From Allacma fusca (lineage: Eukaryota > Arthropoda > Collembola > Symphypleona > Sminthuridae), in assembly GCA_947179485.1 (NCBI GenBank), contig OX359247.1, positions 10,640,588-10,704,587 of the forward strand: 64,000 nt of DNA. Reading direction: 5' to 3'. A program made the translations under genes and the position numbers. The notes under the pieces were generated by a model. It did no database searches. It was not told where the DNA came from and saw nothing but the letters and a program-made list of their open reading frames with translations. This document shows positions 32,763 through 45,100 of this stretch, piece by piece. Within the stretch, counting starts at the first letter, position 1; each line of letters opens with the position of its first letter.

Positions 32763-34836
32763 AGTTTTTTATAGAATTATTGTAAACTTCTGTATTGATT
32801 TATGGTTGTAATGTGGTCACTTCTAAAGTCGTATTCACAGACGCTATTATAAATCATTGCATTATTAAACTTAAAATAGTGTATAAACTTGTATGTTGTA
32901 AATTTACGATTAACAAATTAGCAGGCGGTATTTTGGAGGTAGTATTCCTGGGTACGAAGTATCTTGCAGGAGTGACGGGATTTGTAATTCTGCTATGTCC
33001 TAGAACATAATTTTTCGATTTAGAAAAATATTAAATACCTTATTCTAATAACGTTAGTTTTTATTGTGGAATACTTTTCAAAGATACAGCTATTTATATG
33101 ACTATTTTCTTTAAACTCTATTAGGGGTACTGATTTTAGAAGACTCTTCAGGCTACTTTTTCTTGTTTCGGTTATTTTTTTGTTTTTTCTTGGGAGTAGA
33201 CACAAGTATGTAATCCCAAAGTGTGTACCAAGATAGAGCCATATCATTTGTTATTAATTTCATGCTGCATCTGTAATCTAATTTTGATTATGGTCAGATG
33301 GAATATTATATAGTTGTAGATGCCGTATTAGTAAGTTGTTTTTCTTGTTATGGTGGAACTAATGTCTTTAACTTCCCTCGTTGAGTAGATTCTATGAATA
33401 TTTTAACTAATTACTGATTTTTTTGCGTATTTTTCTAAGCACATCGTGTTCATGGTGGGTAATTTAAATTGCTGCCATTTAGTTTTATTCAAGATAATAT
33501 TTTGCGCTGTAACAGGTGTATTCAAACGTTTGCGGTTGAACAGCGAGAATGACTGTACTGAATAAGTTTTCAAACCAATTTGAAGAGAGAATTAGTTAAT
33601 ATAATGAAAGATGTAATAATGTTTACACGATTCATGGATTTGTGTACACGGTATACTAAATGTAAGGCTTATTTAAGTTAAACACAAATAAATCTAAATA
33701 AGTTAAATGTTAAATATTGAAGACCAAGCTCAACTGATTTCCCATTGTATTAGATACAGTTTTTTTGGGGGCAGTAATTGGCGTATATTTCTACTGTTTC
33801 TCCTTCGCATTACAACATACTTTTACATTTCACCAGGTACTTAAAGTAGTATTTAATAGTTTTTCTGCCTTCTTATTAACCTTAAGCGCTACCCAGGTAA
33901 GTGAAATATTTTTATTGTGTAACTTGTTGCGCTCCTATGACGTATGTGTAGTTTATATAATCAAGTAAATGGAATTTGTTGGGTACTTACAACAAGTGGG
34001 ACAGAAGATATCTCGAAGTACTAGGAATACGCACAAAATGAAACAAGAAAGTTTCGTTTACAGTAAACTACACAGATTCATGTCATTCACATTAGCGACA
34101 TTCTGTTTATAAATTTGGAAAGCAATTAAGGAATGAAACATTTTTATATTCATCATTAGCAGCCGCCTTTCTCATTAGGATTGCGTTAAAGTTGATTTGC
34201 TGTATAAAAGGCTGATTGTGAGGATTCCGGATACAAGCGAAAGCCATTCTATTAAAACCGTTTTGCATTTTACACTTGAATAAGTACTGATATTTTGCAT
34301 TTTTTTTTGATTTCATGAATGAACAGGACAACAGAAGTTAATAATAAAATACCAAAATCACCCGTTTAAGGGGCATATTGAAACGAAAGTCATTGTGGAG
34401 GTGGAGGATATCATTTCTGGTATTCTATACACTTGTACTTCAGCAAAATCTCATTTCAATACCAACTCCAATTTCGGTTTAATGATGGAACTCAGGTAAA
34501 ATTAATCAAAAGAATACCTCATCTCACAAGAAAATTGTCACCATAGTCCACCTCACACATTATATTTAAACACCTTTCACAATTACAGCCACAATTAGTC
34601 CTCTATTAGTTGTCCAGTTGTCTATTGTGTATAAAGAAAGAATAAAATGTATAATTAGTTTACGAAGATCTGTCCTTAAGGTTCCAAGTTCTTGGATCAA
34701 AATAAAATCTCATCCACACCTGCATCCCTCATTGATGCCGATGCTGGACGGATAAGATACGAGATTATAACATACATTAACACTGTTGAAGAATATTTGA
34801 AGCATGTCACTTCATAAGTGTAATAAGATGATTTAC
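32763..34836. other. YY1 3' UTR and convergent intergenic DNA
   Basis: No coding exon is recognised. The left part is the likely YY1 3' UTR. An AATAAA at 33687-33692 is a candidate end. The right part would hold the 3' UTR of the minus-strand small membrane-protein gene. Confidence 0.5.
33687..33692 (+). promoter_or_regulatory. Candidate poly(A) signal of YY1
   Basis: AATAAA about 925 bp after the YY1 stop codon in AT-rich sequence. It is assigned only by position. Confidence 0.3.
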
Positions 34837-36658
34837 CTACTGCCCCATTAACTTAAATAAGTATGCTGATGACATCCCTAGAAGAACCGCAAACAAAATC
34901 GTCACCAGAAATAGAACACTCCCAAACACAATTATTAGTCTCCTGCAGTATTTCCATATTTCACTAAAGTTTTCACTTAGGTTTTCTTCTGGTTGGGCAC
35001 CTACAGAAATTCAAAATGGAATAAATTATACATGTTTTTATTGTTCAACTTATAAAAAACGGTTTTCAGTGGTAGTTGAAAATATTGAGTAGATTTGAGG
35101 AAGGCATGTGTACTTCACGTTAGGGCACAAAGGTGTCCGCCTATCCTACATATAGGCCTATATATATGCTATTTATAGGGTGCGAGGATTTTATTAAAGA
35201 GGCTTGTAGGCAAAATAGGGTGCAAGAATATACACTTAAAACCTAGCCTACAAAATAGGTAGGCTCAGCCGTCGTAGAATTATAGGCATATATGTAGGCT
35301 ATAGAAGCACGCTATTTTCATTTAATGGTATATGGAACGGGCAAAATGAAAATTAAAGAATAATCCGCGACTGGTACTTGCAGATAGTGTGTTTCATCGT
35401 GCGGTTCAAACATGAAAAGTTCGTGCTATCTCGTCTTGATATGCGCTAAAATATCACCAAAATTAAAACTTCAAAATACTCGGTAAAGGGAAAACTATAA
35501 TCTTCACCAATGAAATGAAAAATTGCGGTTGAATACAATTCAAATTTCAAACCGGATTTACTGAGATATGTTGTCAATCAGCTAATAGATTTCCGTTGTC
35601 ATAATTGTCTTATTGTTCAGCTGACTTTGAAATGTTTCTTGTTGTATTTAATTTGTGAAATTTTAAGTATGACATCACTTTTGATCAACTTTGTAAAATT
35701 TAGGTACTATTTCTGGCGTAATCCAAGGCTAGATCGACACTGTTCTGCTCTTAGGGACTTTGGTCAAGGTGACTAAACTCGAACTATTTTATTACGATTC
35801 CATTTACTTGAGACATTGTTTTTAATTAGAATAGAATGCCCTTAAATAGTCTGTCAGTAACGAAAAGCATATAAAATGTTGGAAGGGTGTAGAATTGGTT
35901 GATCTAATTTGTCAATGAAATGTAGGCTAATATGTAGGCTTGGTGCTCCCCATATAGGAAGGATGTAGGATATGCTGAACTATTCGACGGTTAAAATGTA
36001 GGCATATATGTAGGCTGGGTTCAAATTTTATAAATAGGAAGGATTTTAGGATAGGCTGAGTCATTTGGACACCTTTGTTAGGGCATCTGACAGCCATAAT
36101 GAAAATGTGACTTGTGTAATACGCTTACTTTCCTGCCACCGTGAAAACATCAACATGAAATGATGCACTTAAAGTTTAATAATTAGCTGGGATTTAATCC
36201 CAATTTTTTTGGCAGCAGCAATTCCTTACCAGGCTCCATTTCGGTTGAACCACTTAGGTACTGATTTGTTATTACATTTCCAACGTAAATATTGATCTTT
36301 GATCCTGAACAGCATGCCTGGCTCCGTCTTGGTCTTTCTATATTTGAACTGGTACTCCTTTCCGTTCCAGAACTCGCTCGTAGCGGAGCACGAGACACTC
36401 GCGCTTTACCTATTCAATTTCACAGGACATACCACAAATGAAGCAAAAACATACAATTTACTTTTTTATATTAAATGGCACATTTTATTCCGACAAGGAT
36501 TTTAAGAACTTTAGTTACTTAATACAAAGAGCAAAATAATTCCCTCAATATTTTAATATAAAAAACGAAGAAGCTGAAATTAAAATCTTACTGCGTGTAT
36601 ATATTCCAGAAGACATGTCTGTTCCTTCCTTCTCATTTGTATCCGTAAAACTAACCAT
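34837..36658 (-). CDS. Small single-pass membrane protein, unknown family
   Basis: A three-exon gene reconstructed from splice sites: 36658-36592, 36409-36230, 35000-34837, in phase throughout, 136 residues. The donors are GTAAGA and GTAAGG and both acceptors are pyrimidine-TAG. An in-frame TAG lies 24 nt upstream of the ATG. Exon 1 (22 residues) is polar and acidic. Exon 2 is basic and Ser/Arg-rich (ERPRRSQACC), followed by a beta-prone stretch INIYVGNVITNQYL. Exon 3 begins AQPEENLSENFSEIWKYCRR, then has a strong hydrophobic helix at about residues 104-130 (LIIVFGSVLFLVTILFAVLL) and a short tail ending KLMGQ. There is no N-terminal signal peptide, so a cytosolic N-terminus with a C-terminal anchor is inferred. 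A second donor, GTAGGT, overlaps the stop codon and could give a longer isoform. I do not recognise the family. Intron 2 carries a hAT-like element. Confidence 0.6.
35128..36077. mobile_element. hAT-like non-autonomous DNA transposon (950 bp)
   Basis: The ends are perfect 11-bp inverted repeats: CAAAGGTGTCC at 35128-35138 and its complement at 36067-36077. They are flanked by an exact 8-bp direct repeat TTAGGGCA at 35120-35127 and 36078-36085. An 8-bp target duplication and CA...TG ends are typical of hAT elements. A further inverted match, GCCTATCCT, lies just inside. Internally there are many copies of a TAGGC/ATATATGTAGGCT motif in both orientations. There is no transposase frame. It lies wholly within intron 2 of the small membrane-protein gene. 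Confidence 0.88.
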
Positions 36659-39600
36659 AATTGTTAGTGTACTGCTCTACCGTCAAAAATAGTATTTGAA
36701 TTTGAACTGAACTATTTTGAATTATCAAGATAAAAGAAACTGCATTATTTTAGACACTCGTCGTCAAAAATTTGTTTAAGTAGGTTCGTAGAGTATTGGA
36801 TAGTCTAAAAACGCTTCACCTGTGTTTGAGATTCTGTGATTGTATATACTTGTTGTGTCTACGTGTAGCCATGTAGCTGCAGGTACTTCGGTATATACAA
36901 GGGTTCCAGGGCTGTTTGTAGGAAGCTTTGAAATGTTGAAGGTCATACATATAAGTACCTACAATCAGACGTGAACATGTTATACAACTACAAATAGCAT
37001 GAGTAAACCATATCAGCGAAAAAATTTACTACACAACATATTTCCTTTCCTACATGAAATCGTATACTCCTAAAGTAATGTGATAACAGAAAATTAATAT
37101 CTAATGTCAAGGGATAGAACATTTTCCTCCTGTATGCATATTCCTTTATATCATGTTAAAAATGTGGTAGCTGTATTGTCAAATAACTCAGGTCTGGGCC
37201 GTCTAGGCACTGATTTCCCGTTACAACATTTTTGCTTTCATTACATCTAGATCTAAGTACTACTAGTCCAATTGCATAATTGTTACAGACTAGGTACCCA
37301 TTCTTTTGTAATATTTTCATATCAAATTTGTTAATATTTCATCACTTTTGACAACTTAAGTACACCGAATTTATTTTCACCTTAATAAAATGAATTCATT
37401 TAATTTCAAAATATCCAGAACTTTCCCGAGGAAACTAGAATAAACAAATATCGACAAACATTTTAAAGGTTCTTGCTTAAAAAATGGTGTACTTAATTTT
37501 AACAGTAAGGATCTTTACATCAGTGACACACTCTTTTGTCATTTTGTGTTTATTCTCCCTCCTTATTCTTGCAATTGTGGGATACACATGGGAATCGAAC
37601 CTGGTGCAATAAGTATTGGCTGGTAATGTAATTAAACATCATACATATACATATCTACAGATATGCGAAAGATGAGAAATCCAAAGTAGGTCCTACCACC
37701 AGACAACCACAGCTTTTTATAGCATAAGTGTAAACAAAGGGCAGGGATAAATCCCGGATCGGCGGGATGAAGGAAATGGATATAAAATCCGGGATTGCGG
37801 GCAAATAATTGAACGGATAAAATTTGGCATTGAAATAGCTGTGTATGTAGGGAAAAGGACATATTTGTGGAAAGCCCCAAGCCCCAACCATTTTTTACTT
37901 TTACAACTTTTGGTTACACACATGGCTGTTATTTATAACTAGATGATTTTGTCTAGTTAAAGAATTGCATTTGTTTACAATCTTCAAGAATATTCTATAA
38001 AATGTGGAATCGAAACTAATTAAGTTGGACCATATGAGCTAGGGGGAGGAGATAGGAGAATGTTTTCAATACCCTGTGTGTATGTACATATAGTGCATTA
38101 CACTGACCAATTGCACAGATATCCGTCCTTCGTAGTTTTCGTAATAATTTGTTGCGTCTGGTTTGTTTTCTTCTCATGTTTCGACAAAATCCAATCAATA
38201 AGAGCAAGTTAACTCGAAAACGCCTGGTTGACACGTACTTACGGAAAACACACGCACAAGGTTACTTTTAAACTGCTTTCGTGATTCCATTGAAATTCCC
38301 TGCTCATTACTTTCACATACTAAATACAGTATATAGTCTGAAGTCTGAACGTTTTGATAATTTTATCAGTACGTCTATGTTGTAGTATTACGTGACATTA
38401 CCACCAGCTTTTATTATTTGTCACCCCAAAAACATTTCTTCTCCCGTATGGATTCATTTACTCTGGTGTGATCAAGTGTTATATATTTTATTTATGTAAG
38501 TGCATGAACTTGAAGGTAAGTACGTAAATGTGTTATAAAAATTCAGGTAATAAATTAAAATGTTCATCACTAAATAATAAGCACGTTACAAGCACACAGG
38601 AAGTATGTACTACTTGTTAGATTTGTTCGTATAAACTCTGAGATATTGTCGATTTTAAAATTGTGATTATTTCTGCAAGTACAACTTTTTACTCCTTGCA
38701 CACTCATGAATTACTACAAGCACTATAAAATGTAATAATGAACTCCTTCAATTTTAATCATCCCATTAAATTGCATTTAAAGTAATTTTATCTAGTGCAT
38801 ATATTAGTTTACGTTCGAAATGACCCTAGTAAAATTTTATTTGCTCAAAACAAATGTCATTGATAAATACTAAAGAGGCATGCCCTTGTACAGTCCTAGC
38901 CAAACAGTATGTTTTGCTGTGAAAAAAAAGGTTTGATAAATTATTTGCAAATTTAGACATGTTAAACTCCAGATAAACAAGTGCGTGTCTCCTGAAAAAT
39001 GCATAATAAAAAGCATTTAAGAAGAAAAACGTTGACGTAATGTACACCTGTTGAGTTCCCAATAAAGTGCTCTTTAACTTACCACCCTTTTGTTTATTTC
39101 ATGTACATAAGCCCAGTAAGGTTTGCTTGTTGCAGTCTTTCTCTCACAAAGAATGAAATCACGGTATCCGTTTATCCTCAACTCATAATAATTTCATGAA
39201 GCCAGTGTTCAAAGAATTTTAGTATCTCGGGGCAAGCAGCTGTGTATACATAGGTACTTACACTACTCGAATCAGTTGAGGAGACAGATAAAGAGCAGAA
39301 GGTTACCCCTCATGTGTTTCTTCTTGTTTGTGAAGAATTCTGGTGTGTAAAAGCGTAATTATCGGTAAACTATAAGACATTTTGAATAAATAACCATGAG
39401 TGCATCCTACTTACTACTTGTCTTATGTCCAATTTATTATACAGTGTAAGATAGAGAGTAATGATTTCCGTACTATATGCTATATGCTAGAACACTGGAA
39501 ATAAAAATTCGTGGAGGCTGAGAAGTATTCCAGTACCAGCTGGCGACCACTTCTGATCATGTGCTTTCCATGAAATATACACGAAGACGTTGACACGCAA

Positions 39601-39975
39601 GTCGTGAAGTTCGCTTCCACACTTCACTTTCATTACTCGGATTTCCTTTCGGACGTCTAGGGCAAGGCGGGTGATTTTCTATTAGTACCTGCCTCGTCTA
39701 CGAAAGAAACTCTTCCGTGACGTCAAAAGGATTTTTTAATTTTAAATAAATAGCAACAATTCCCTGGGTATTAATCCTTTACTTCCGATTTATAAACCTT
39801 TGGGGTTAATTGATATTCCAAGAATGCAATTAGGAAGAGTGTGTAGGGTTCTACTCAAAATGTTCAGGATATATGATAGAATATATAATTTGTAAAAATC
39901 GAGTAGGGAAGAGAATTGAAGTGCAGAGGCAAGTTAACGTTTTGTTGCTTCAGTGGTTAACGAAGATCAAGTACC
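36659..39975. other. Intergenic region with no recognised gene
   Basis: I see no supported exon, RNA gene or transposon terminus. Several overlapping minus-strand frames at 37632-37923 and one at 38016-38234 look like chance. The right end (about 39480-39760) is less AT-rich and includes a perfect palindrome TGACGTCA at 39718-39725, so it may be the promoter for the transcript starting near 39976. Confidence 0.5.
39718..39725. promoter_or_regulatory. Consensus CRE palindrome
   Basis: Perfect TGACGTCA, the CREB/ATF binding consensus, about 250 bp upstream of the ATG at 39976 in locally GC-richer DNA. An 8-bp match can occur by chance, so function is inferred only from its position. Confidence 0.3.
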
Positions 39976-40080
39976 ATGGCCAAGAATTCAGAATGGTTAC
40001 CCGTGACCACATCAACCCCTACAGCTCTATTCCCACTTTTTGTTTCCGGTGAGGAACGGCCTGCATCCTCAGTCTATCAG
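39976..40080 (+). CDS. Candidate first coding exon, gene unassigned
   Basis: ATG in a favourable context (ACCATGG), 35 codons starting MAKNSEWLPVTTSTPTALFP and ending SSVYQ, with a good CAG|GTACGT donor in phase 0. The composition looks coding. I could not find an in-frame partner exon. Splicing from phase 0 into the acceptors just before the DUF229 start at 42131 gives early stops, so it may be an upstream ORF in the DUF229 5' leader or the start of another transcript. Reading through the donor gives a 91-residue frame with a hydrophobic segment; I judge this less likely. Confidence 0.3.
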
Positions 40081-42130: not shown

Positions 42131-45100
42131 ATGCGAAACAACGGAATTTACACGCGACCCTCGCTGACCCGAAAAGGACGACGGTTTTGTGTCTGCAAAA
42201 CTCTGATGATTCTTTTCGGTGTCACTATAACCACTTATGTGATTCTGAACAGCCGTTTGCAACATTTCTACCCGGAGCCCATTGCAATCGGGAAAGTAAT
42301 CAGCGGAAACAAAATCTCCCAGCCCAAATGTGCACTGCCTAATTTACCATTGGACAATCCGGAAATTACAAAATATATAGAAGAATTCCCGAGAATCGAG
42401 TGCAAGCAACCTGATGGTCAAAGAGAGGAAGACTGGGTCGTGGTCAATGGTAGCCATGCAGTAGTAACTGAAGAAGCCAGAGCTAGGCATAAAAATATCA
42501 ACTGCATATTTTCTGGTGAGTCCTTGCAGATTACAGCACGTATTTGTTTAAAGAAATAACACAACAGTGAAATATTTCATGTCATTATTACCCCTAAGGT
42601 ATTGCATTAAGACATAGGATTGAAATTACCCATGCATTTATTCCAATGAAACGTGACCGGCCAACTGCCACCCCCACAACTGCCACAATCACAACTGCCC
42701 CAATAATTTTTTGCCACCGATCCAAAATTACAAAGCGGTAACAACTGCCACAAAACCAACTGCCACCCGGAGAACTGCCACAAGGCAATGCAAACAGCCT
42801 ATGCTAAGTGATGTAGCAGAAACCAACACTCATGCAATGGCACTGACCATAGGATTTCGCCATGACACTTAGCATAGGATTTCGCCATGACACTTAGCAT
42901 AGGATTTCGCCATGACACTTAGCATAGGATTTCGCCATGACACTTAGCATAGGATTTCGCCATGACACTTAGCATTAGTTTCGCCATGACACTTAGCATA
43001 GGATTTGTAATGACACTTAGCATAGGATTTCGCCATGACACTTAGCATTAGTTTCGCCATGACACTTAGCATAGGATTTGTAATGACACTTAGCATTAGT
43101 TTCGCCATGACACTTAGCATTAGTTTCGCCATGACACTTAGCATTAGTTTCGCCATGACACTTAGCATAGGATTTGTAATGACACTTAGCATTAGTTTCG
43201 CCATGACACTTAGCTTAGGATTTGTAATGACACTTAGCATTGGATTTATAATGACACTTAGCATTAGTTTTGCAATGACACTTAGCATTAGTTTTGCAAT
43301 GACACTTAGCATTAGTTTTACAATGACACTTAGCATTAGTTTTACAATGACACTTAGCATTAGTTTCGCCATGATACTTAGCGTAGGATTTCGCCATGAC
43401 ACTTAGCATAGGATTTGTAATGACACTTCGCATAGGATTTCGCCATGACACTTAGCATAGGATTTCGCCATGACACTTAGCATAGGATTTCGCCATGACG
43501 CTTAGCATAGGATTTGTAATGACACTTAGCATTGGATTTGTAATGACACTTAGCATTAGTTTTGCAATGACACTTAGCATTAGTTTTGCAATGACACTTA
43601 GCATTAGTTTTGCAATGACACTTAGCATAGGTTTTTGCAATGACACTTAGCATTAGTTTTGCAATGACACTTAGCATAGGTTTTTGCAATGACACTTAGC
43701 ATTAGTTTTGCAATGACACTTAGCATAGGATTTCGCCATGACACTTAGCATAGGATTTCGCCATGACACTTAGCATTAGTTTCGCCATGACACTTAGCAT
43801 AGGATTTGTAATGACACTTAGCATAGGATTTCGCCATGACACTTAGCATTAGTTTCGCCATGACACTTAGCATTAGTTTCGCCATGACACTTAGCATTAG
43901 TTTCGCCATGACACTTAGCATAGGATTTGTAATGACACTTAGCATTAGTTTCGCCATGACACTTAGCTTAGGATTTGTAATGACACTTAGCATTGGATTT
44001 ATAATGACACTTAGCATTAGTTTTGCAATGACACTTAGCATTAGTTTTGCAATGACACTTAGCATTAGTTTTACAATGATACTTAGCATTAGTTTTGCAA
44101 TGACACTTAGCATAGGTTTTTGCAATGACACTTAGCATTAGTTTTGCAATGACACTTAGCATAGGATTTCGCCATGACACTTAGCATAGGATTTCGCCAT
44201 GACACTTAGCATTAGTTTCGCCATGACACTTAGCATAGGATTTGTAATGACACTTAGCATAGGATTTCGCCATGACACTTAGCATTAGTTTCGCCATGAC
44301 ACTTAGCATAGGATTTGTAATGACACTTAGCATTAGTTTCGCCATGACACTTAGCATTAGTTTCGCCATGACACTTAGCATTAGTTTCGCCATGACACTT
44401 AGCATAGGATTTGTAATGACACTTAGCATTAGTTTCGCCATGACACTTAGCTTAGGATTTGTAATGACACTTAGCATTGGATTTATAATGACACTTAGCA
44501 TTAGTTTTGCAATGACACTTAGCATTAGTTTTGCAATGACACTTAGCATTAGTTTTACAATGACACTTAGCATTAGTTTTACAATGACACTTAGCATTAG
44601 TTTCGCCATGATACTTAGCGTAGGATTTCGCCATGACACTTAGCATAGGATTTCGCCATGACACTTAGCATAGGATTTCGCCATGACGCTTAGCATAGGA
44701 TTTGTAATGACACTTAGCATTGGATTTGTAATGACACTTAGCATTAGTTTTGCAATGACACTTAGAATTAGTTTTGCAATGACACTTAGCATTAGTTTTG
44801 CAATGACACTTAGCATAGGTTTTTGCAATGACACTTAGCATTAGTTTTGCAATGACACTTAGCATAGGTTTTTGCAATGACACTTAGCATTAGTTTTGCA
44901 ATGATACTTAGCATAGGTTTTTGCAATGACACTTAGCATTAGTTTTGCAATGACACTTAGCATAGGTTTTTGCAATGACACTTAGCATGGTTATTTTCAA
45001 CGAACCTTTTCGATTTCAAATTTTTAAAAAAGTATTTACATGTAAATTAAGTTTGCACAAATGTGGTATAAGCGTAAGTGCTACAAACGTGATGTGGCAG

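Follow-up and report, generated by a model that had tools for sequence, protein, structure and literature searches.

A candidate orphan gene for a small, probably tail-anchored membrane protein in Allacma fusca

Introduction

Does a chain of three short open segments on the minus strand of Allacma fusca DNA encode a small membrane protein, or did short frames and splice-like sites fall into line by luck? The question was raised by an earlier note on positions 34837 to 36658 of the window, i.e. the whole stretch of 64,000 nucleotides that was analysed. In that note the chain was described as a three-exon gene, and a short core in its product was compared to RHIM-type amyloid motifs. Coordinates are those of the window unless a contig is named.

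The window has a GC content of 36% and lies on a 66-Mb contig; the genome comprises 393 Mb in 91 contigs. The candidate is located between the YY1-type and the DUF229-type gene of the following set:

3.9-4.3 kb: protein kinase gene (Pfam match), which we take to be a tau-tubulin kinase
19.2-22.3 kb (pieces), minus strand: PH and RasGEF gene of the SOS type (Pfam; RasGEF just under the cut-off)
28.3-32.8 kb: zinc-finger gene (Pfam match), presumably YY1
42.0-47.9 kb: DUF229 gene (Pfam match)
50.5-53.4 kb, minus strand: ZIP zinc transporter gene (Pfam match)
from 61.6 kb: XAP5/FAM50 gene (Pfam match)

Rfam and tRNA scans of the window returned nothing. A tandem array of about 2.2 kb (42833-44992; 24-bp unit, 89 copies, 87% matches) separates predicted exons 1 and 2 of the DUF229 gene, and the long open frames on both of its strands are by-products of the repeat.

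Materials and methods

The minus strand was read from 37000 to 34500 and the proposed exons were joined by script. Chains were scored with a gene model that combined codon preference, splice-site matrices and a cost per intron. As a null, the 4 kb around the candidate were shuffled with dinucleotides preserved, and the best chain of each shuffle was compared with the chain under study. Codon preference was trained on 14 stretches (1664 codons) from genes within the window; among the four control genes, the ZIP-type gene alone stood outside this training set. The regions taken as non-coding, 48.5-59 kb among them, contained the ZIP gene, and the main controls were repeated without it.

Results

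Gene model

Reading and re-splicing of the minus strand gave the following features:

36705..36710, minus strand: TCAGTT, about 50 nt 5' of the ATG, presumably initiator-like (short motif, weak)
36592..36658, minus strand: putative exon 1, 67 nt, GC 0.37, starting with the ATG at 36658 and ending in phase 1, after 22 codons and one further base
36410..36591, minus strand: putative intron 1, 182 nt, GC 0.25
36230..36409, minus strand: putative exon 2, 180 nt, GC 0.46, coding for a Ser/Arg-rich segment and then SKINIYVGNVITNQYLSG
35001..36229, minus strand: putative intron 2, 1229 nt, GC 0.35
34837..35000, minus strand: putative exon 3, 164 nt, GC 0.38, including the stop TAG at 34837-34839
34478..34483, minus strand: ATTAAA, about 350 nt 3' of the stop, which we take as a possible polyadenylation signal (short motif, weak)

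Both introns are GT-AG and each splits a codon after its first base, so that the three exons join in phase into 136 residues and a stop. The exon coordinates, the junctions 36592/36409 and 36230/35000 and the length of the product were all reproduced as the earlier note had given them. An in-frame TAG was read 21 nt 5' of the ATG, leaving an open chain with its own start and stop. The N-terminus of the product is polar by reading, and exon 3 codes for an acidic linker, WKYCRR, one transmembrane helix (residues 104-125) and a C-terminal tail of 11 residues.

A second open frame spans nearly all of exon 2 (36229-36405, minus strand; SASVSC...NRNGAW). Its codon score is 5.2 versus 4.3 for the proposed frame, and a Pfam search with this second frame gave no match; nor did one with the read-on frame of exon 2.

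A hAT-type element in intron 2

Much of intron 2 consists of an insert, which was assigned to the hAT type on what we take to be the hallmarks of that class:

35128..36077, no strand assigned: hAT-type non-autonomous element, 950 bp, with ends CAAAGGTGTCC...GGACACCTTTG

A perfect 8-bp target duplication, TTAGGGCA, flanks the element (35120-35127 and 36078-36085), and the intron without the element and one copy of the duplication measures 271 nt. Searching the genome with the element yielded 66 matching pieces from the best 40 of 1376 candidates; the two best other copies among the matches listed agreed with it along the full 950 bases, at 97% and 96% identity. At five of the eight loci that were read (the intron 2 copy, L011, L012, L016 and L017), both ends and an 8-bp duplication were found, the letters of the duplication differing each time and one of the five copies carrying a variant first end. 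At L013, L014 and L015 one or both exact ends were missing. The 8-bp duplication, the short inverted end repeats and the many copies are all those of a hAT-type element. Its insertion in intron 2 is probably recent, and it neither favours nor disfavours the candidate gene.

The hydrophobic C-terminal segment

Over 19 residues, the segment at the C-terminus averages a hydropathy of 3.03. All 19-residue windows of the product with a mean of at least 1.6 start between residues 100 and 117, and among the windows that start no later than residue 80 the highest mean is 0.48. Ranked by hydropathy, the segment came second among the 661 open segments of at least 40 residues in the whole window. The top-ranked one runs antisense to an acidic repeat in the XAP5/FAM50 gene, and three segments over the ZIP transporter also appear in the top list, at 2.38, 2.42 and 2.48, the last of them partly intronic. 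The strong transmembrane helix near the C-terminus that the earlier note had reported is thereby confirmed.

Comparison with non-coding sequence was made in three ways. None of the 162 open segments taken as non-coding reached this hydropathy (0/138 without the ZIP gene; highest 2.73), and segments from shuffled sequence reached it in 4 of 20,204 cases. When the segment's own 66-nt tract was shuffled, 10 of 28,765 open frames were as hydrophobic. With about 160 segments available for picking, one this hydrophobic would, by arithmetic from the shuffles, turn up in roughly 3-6% of cases. The hydrophobic segment is the sole part of the chain that beats chance. Because it does so in several controls, exon 3 is regarded as probably coding and the rest of the chain as putative.

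Exon 3 alone (54 residues) was also submitted to AlphaFold2 as a single sequence. One helix was predicted over residues 5-53 with a mean pLDDT of 88.6, as would be expected of any such sequence, and the prediction says nothing on function.

Whole-chain, codon and splice-site scores

With a per-codon bonus of 0.1 the candidate chain scored 9.9, a value equalled or exceeded in 51 of 200 shuffles. Without codon preference and at a bonus of 0.15 it was matched in 90/200, and with no bonus in 200/200. The scores of the four known window genes (five tiles) were matched in 0/100 shuffles each. The coding score of the candidate therefore does not rise above that of shuffled sequence, in a test that has low power for so short a protein, and the earlier judgement that a chance chain of this kind is unlikely fails for the chain as a whole.

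Within the region, the top-scoring chain on the minus strand joins exons 1 and 2 to another third exon and lacks the membrane segment; it was matched in 12/100 shuffles. On the plus strand of the same 4 kb, the best chain scored 14.9 versus 9.9 for the candidate, and 2/100 shuffles reached 14.9. In four other intergenic tiles, the best chain was matched in 42, 22 and 12 of 100 shuffles and, in the fourth (37.6-41.6 kb, minus strand), in 0/100 by a thin margin, so that the gene model is not free of stray signals. When chains were forced to end at the candidate stop, the model passed over exon 1 for other upstream exons at two of the three settings; with no bonus it took a shorter last exon, from 34877 and without the helix.

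The codon score of the candidate is 3.5 over 136 codons, and the lowest among 1018 windows of equal length from the four known genes is 8.4. By exon, scores as good were found in 11% of the windows taken as non-coding for exon 1 (9% without the ZIP gene), in 17% for exon 2 (16%) and in 59% for exon 3 (55%), the last being at the non-coding average. The figure for exon 3 is neutral. Part of the low score is bias, because codons for membrane helices are scarce in the training set; the ZIP gene, with membrane helices and outside that set, nonetheless has a good codon score. GC at codon positions 1, 2 and 3 is 0.42, 0.47 and 0.35, with position 1 below position 2; in all 14 training stretches position 1 is above position 2.

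Splice sites were scored with matrices of general consensus frequencies rather than ones fitted to the host genome, against 18 known donors and 18 known acceptors. The exon boundaries of these known genes were themselves set by the gene model, with its preference for good sites, and by Pfam matches to parts of the products. The donors of exons 1 and 2 scored 0.7 and 4.2 (known range -1.0 to 6.2), and the acceptors of introns 1 and 2 scored -2.2 and 2.1 (known range -0.9 to 5.1). For the host genome the second junction is ordinary and the first is poor. The earlier description of good splice sites is not borne out at all four: the first donor is within the known range and the second donor and acceptor are ordinary, but the first acceptor lies below all 18 known ones. 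Doubt attaches to exon 1 and to its splice to exon 2, and a different 5' exon is possible.

Relatives and copy number

In Pfam, no family matched the 136-residue product, and among PDB chains no relative was found for the product or for the residues around its core; matches were listed up to E = 10 in both searches, although the HMMER filters drop most weak matches all the same. Within that scope the searches agree with the earlier statement that no family matches. Viral contigs, which may hold stray eukaryotic DNA, gave 14 pattern matches, none of them a relative. When the candidate's own 393-Mb genome was searched with the protein, the best candidates scored comprised its own three exons and no paralogue. 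With the DNA of exons 1 and 2 a single place was found, again among the best candidates scored.

The RHIM-like core and PGRP genes

The core in question consists of the residues N-I-Y-V-G. For RHIMs, PMC7885112 names the core G-(I,V)-Q-(I,V)-G; cryptic RHIMs of insects that lack the glutamine are described in PMC9496462, with VHIG as an example of such a core in PMC9531809. No Pfam RHIM match to the product was listed up to E = 10, and the core departs from G-(I,V)-Q-(I,V)-G. With cryptic RHIMs, IYVG shares the hydrophobic-x-hydrophobic-G arrangement alone. In frames taken as non-coding (40,887 residues), 25 instances of the loose motif (I,V)-x-(I,V)-G were counted, or an expected 0.083 per 136 residues, so that about one in 12 such products would carry it by luck. 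The resemblance, which the earlier note itself had called weak, is therefore of a frequency that chance explains.

A PGRP ectodomain was looked for in ten minus-strand open segments at 33.0-39.1 kb and was found in none; four of the ten lie where exon 3 ends or downstream of it. The sole Pfam match in the ten was to a zinc-finger model far under the cut-off (E 0.032; 38829-39098). Three Amidase_2 matches were obtained in the genome, all away from the candidate locus. A gene of several exons near C10:20.647 Mb (G000:C10:20645644-20648802) is plainly PGRP-like by reading, so the host has at least one PGRP-like protein; the gene model merged its exons with neighbouring multi-span genes. At G000:C8:66467491-66470637, a later open segment of another Amidase_2 gene continues, by eye, into an SH3-like cell-wall-binding stretch. 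In this it is unlike animal PGRPs, and the gene is possibly of bacterial origin.

Discussion

We put the chances at about even that the minus strand of the locus holds a real gene, present in a single copy and restricted to its lineage, with a last exon (35000-34837) that codes for a strong transmembrane helix near the C-terminus; the 5' part of the 136-residue model may be wrongly modelled. The hydrophobic segment, the single helix predicted for exon 3, the in-phase chain with its upstream in-frame stop, exons richer in GC than the introns, and the ordinary donor of exon 2 and acceptor of exon 3 argue for a gene. Against it stand the chance-level chain score, the fact that the best chains of the model in the region skip the membrane segment, the codon score, GC by codon position, the poor acceptor of exon 2 and the lack of a homologue in the libraries searched. 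The description in the earlier note is correct, its significance holds for the membrane helix only, and its amyloid speculation is not supported. As to the small tail-anchored-like protein that it proposed, the phrase reads the last exon fairly and may also apply to the entire chain.

A serious competitor, if short of an even chance, is intergenic non-coding DNA in which short frames and splice-like sites happen to be aligned, the helix being the luckiest of the T-rich open segments. Shuffled sequence matched the chain score in 51 (or 90) of 200 cases, the plus strand of the same 4 kb did better, codon use and codon-position GC differ from those of known genes, and no relatives came from Pfam, the PDB or the genome itself; what this reading has to call luck is a hydrophobic segment that holds up in three separate controls. 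Rather unlikely is a third account, in which the 136-residue product misrepresents a real, longer gene: exons 2 and 3 (or only exon 3) would be part of it, and its other 5' exons would lie further upstream on the minus strand, at 37-41.6 kb. With the bonus at 0 or 0.1, the model did favour upstream exons such as 40001-40073 and 39496-39656 over exon 1 for chains ending at the candidate stop; at 0.2 it kept exon 1, slightly extended, as an internal exon. Between 37.6 and 41.6 kb, the top-scoring chain of the minus strand beat 100/100 shuffles, narrowly, at 16.7 versus 16.2; against this account, that margin is thin, longer chains vary with the per-codon bonus, and the upstream chain has no Pfam relative. 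Possible exons of that chain are seen at 40073-40001 and 39656-39487 (or shorter), minus strand, with no Pfam match.

The core bears on one more reading, which we consider very improbable: an amyloid adaptor of the RHIM type, tethered to the membrane and partnering Imd from upstream, for example, in an animal in which no membrane PGRP carries a RHIM. I-Y-V-G fits the loose hydrophobic-x-hydrophobic-G of RHIM and cryptic RHIM cores, and it would lie on the presumed cytosolic side of the membrane helix, as in PGRP-LC. Parts of the Imd pathway without RHIM-bearing membrane PGRPs are reported for non-insect arthropods in PMC4833078 and PMC5437397: in crustaceans (Daphnia) the pathway is largely intact, yet Daphnia is without PGRPs, and in the myriapod studied no RHIM was identified in its two membrane PGRPs (both in PMC4833078), while a protein of unknown identity is posited upstream of Imd in a figure legend of PMC5437397. 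Set against these points are the expectation of 0.08 such patterns per 136 residues, the lack of a Pfam match and the failure of all the fuller cores cited from the literature to fit. Because of the PGRP-LC-like placement and the Imd-upstream component posited in the literature, the reading is kept slightly above zero. That the posited component would be a lineage-restricted membrane adaptor of this type, with a divergent RHIM-like core and no receptor domain, has likewise only a very slight chance.

To return to the gene itself, the candidate is best described as an orphan, single-copy gene for a single-pass protein that, judged from its sequence, is probably tail-anchored. If it is expressed, about 100 polar and probably disordered residues would be exposed to the cytosol, and the KYCRR cluster just before the helix suggests an N-in topology. 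Insertion would then be post-translational, via the C-terminal anchor, as for other tail-anchored proteins, and the product might act as a small membrane-tethered adaptor or regulator.

If real, the candidate adds to the orphan small membrane proteins that annotation can miss because both coding score and homology are weak. Plausible splice chains come cheaply in A+T-rich DNA; strongly hydrophobic segments do not. The locus would gain greater weight only if the amyloid reading were true, since Imd activation outside insects is described as open in PMC4833078 and PMC5437397.

Three known systems offer a comparison. The insert in intron 2 resembles hAT-type non-autonomous elements in its inverted end repeats CAAAGGTGTCC and in the 8-bp duplications at five of the eight loci. 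With the cryptic RHIMs of PGRP-LC, PGRP-LE and Imd, as described in PMC9531809 and PMC9496462, the candidate shares a short hydrophobic-x-hydrophobic-G core on the presumed cytosolic side, with glutamine absent from it; the published core is VHIG, that of the candidate IYVG. PGRP-LC carries a PGRP domain, whereas the candidate has none in the four open segments scanned from the end of exon 3 onwards. Tail-anchored proteins are a topology class rather than a family, and the candidate, for which no sequence relative was found, would join them by its own residues: given a correct chain, it has the single transmembrane helix near the C-terminus that marks the class, followed by 11 residues.
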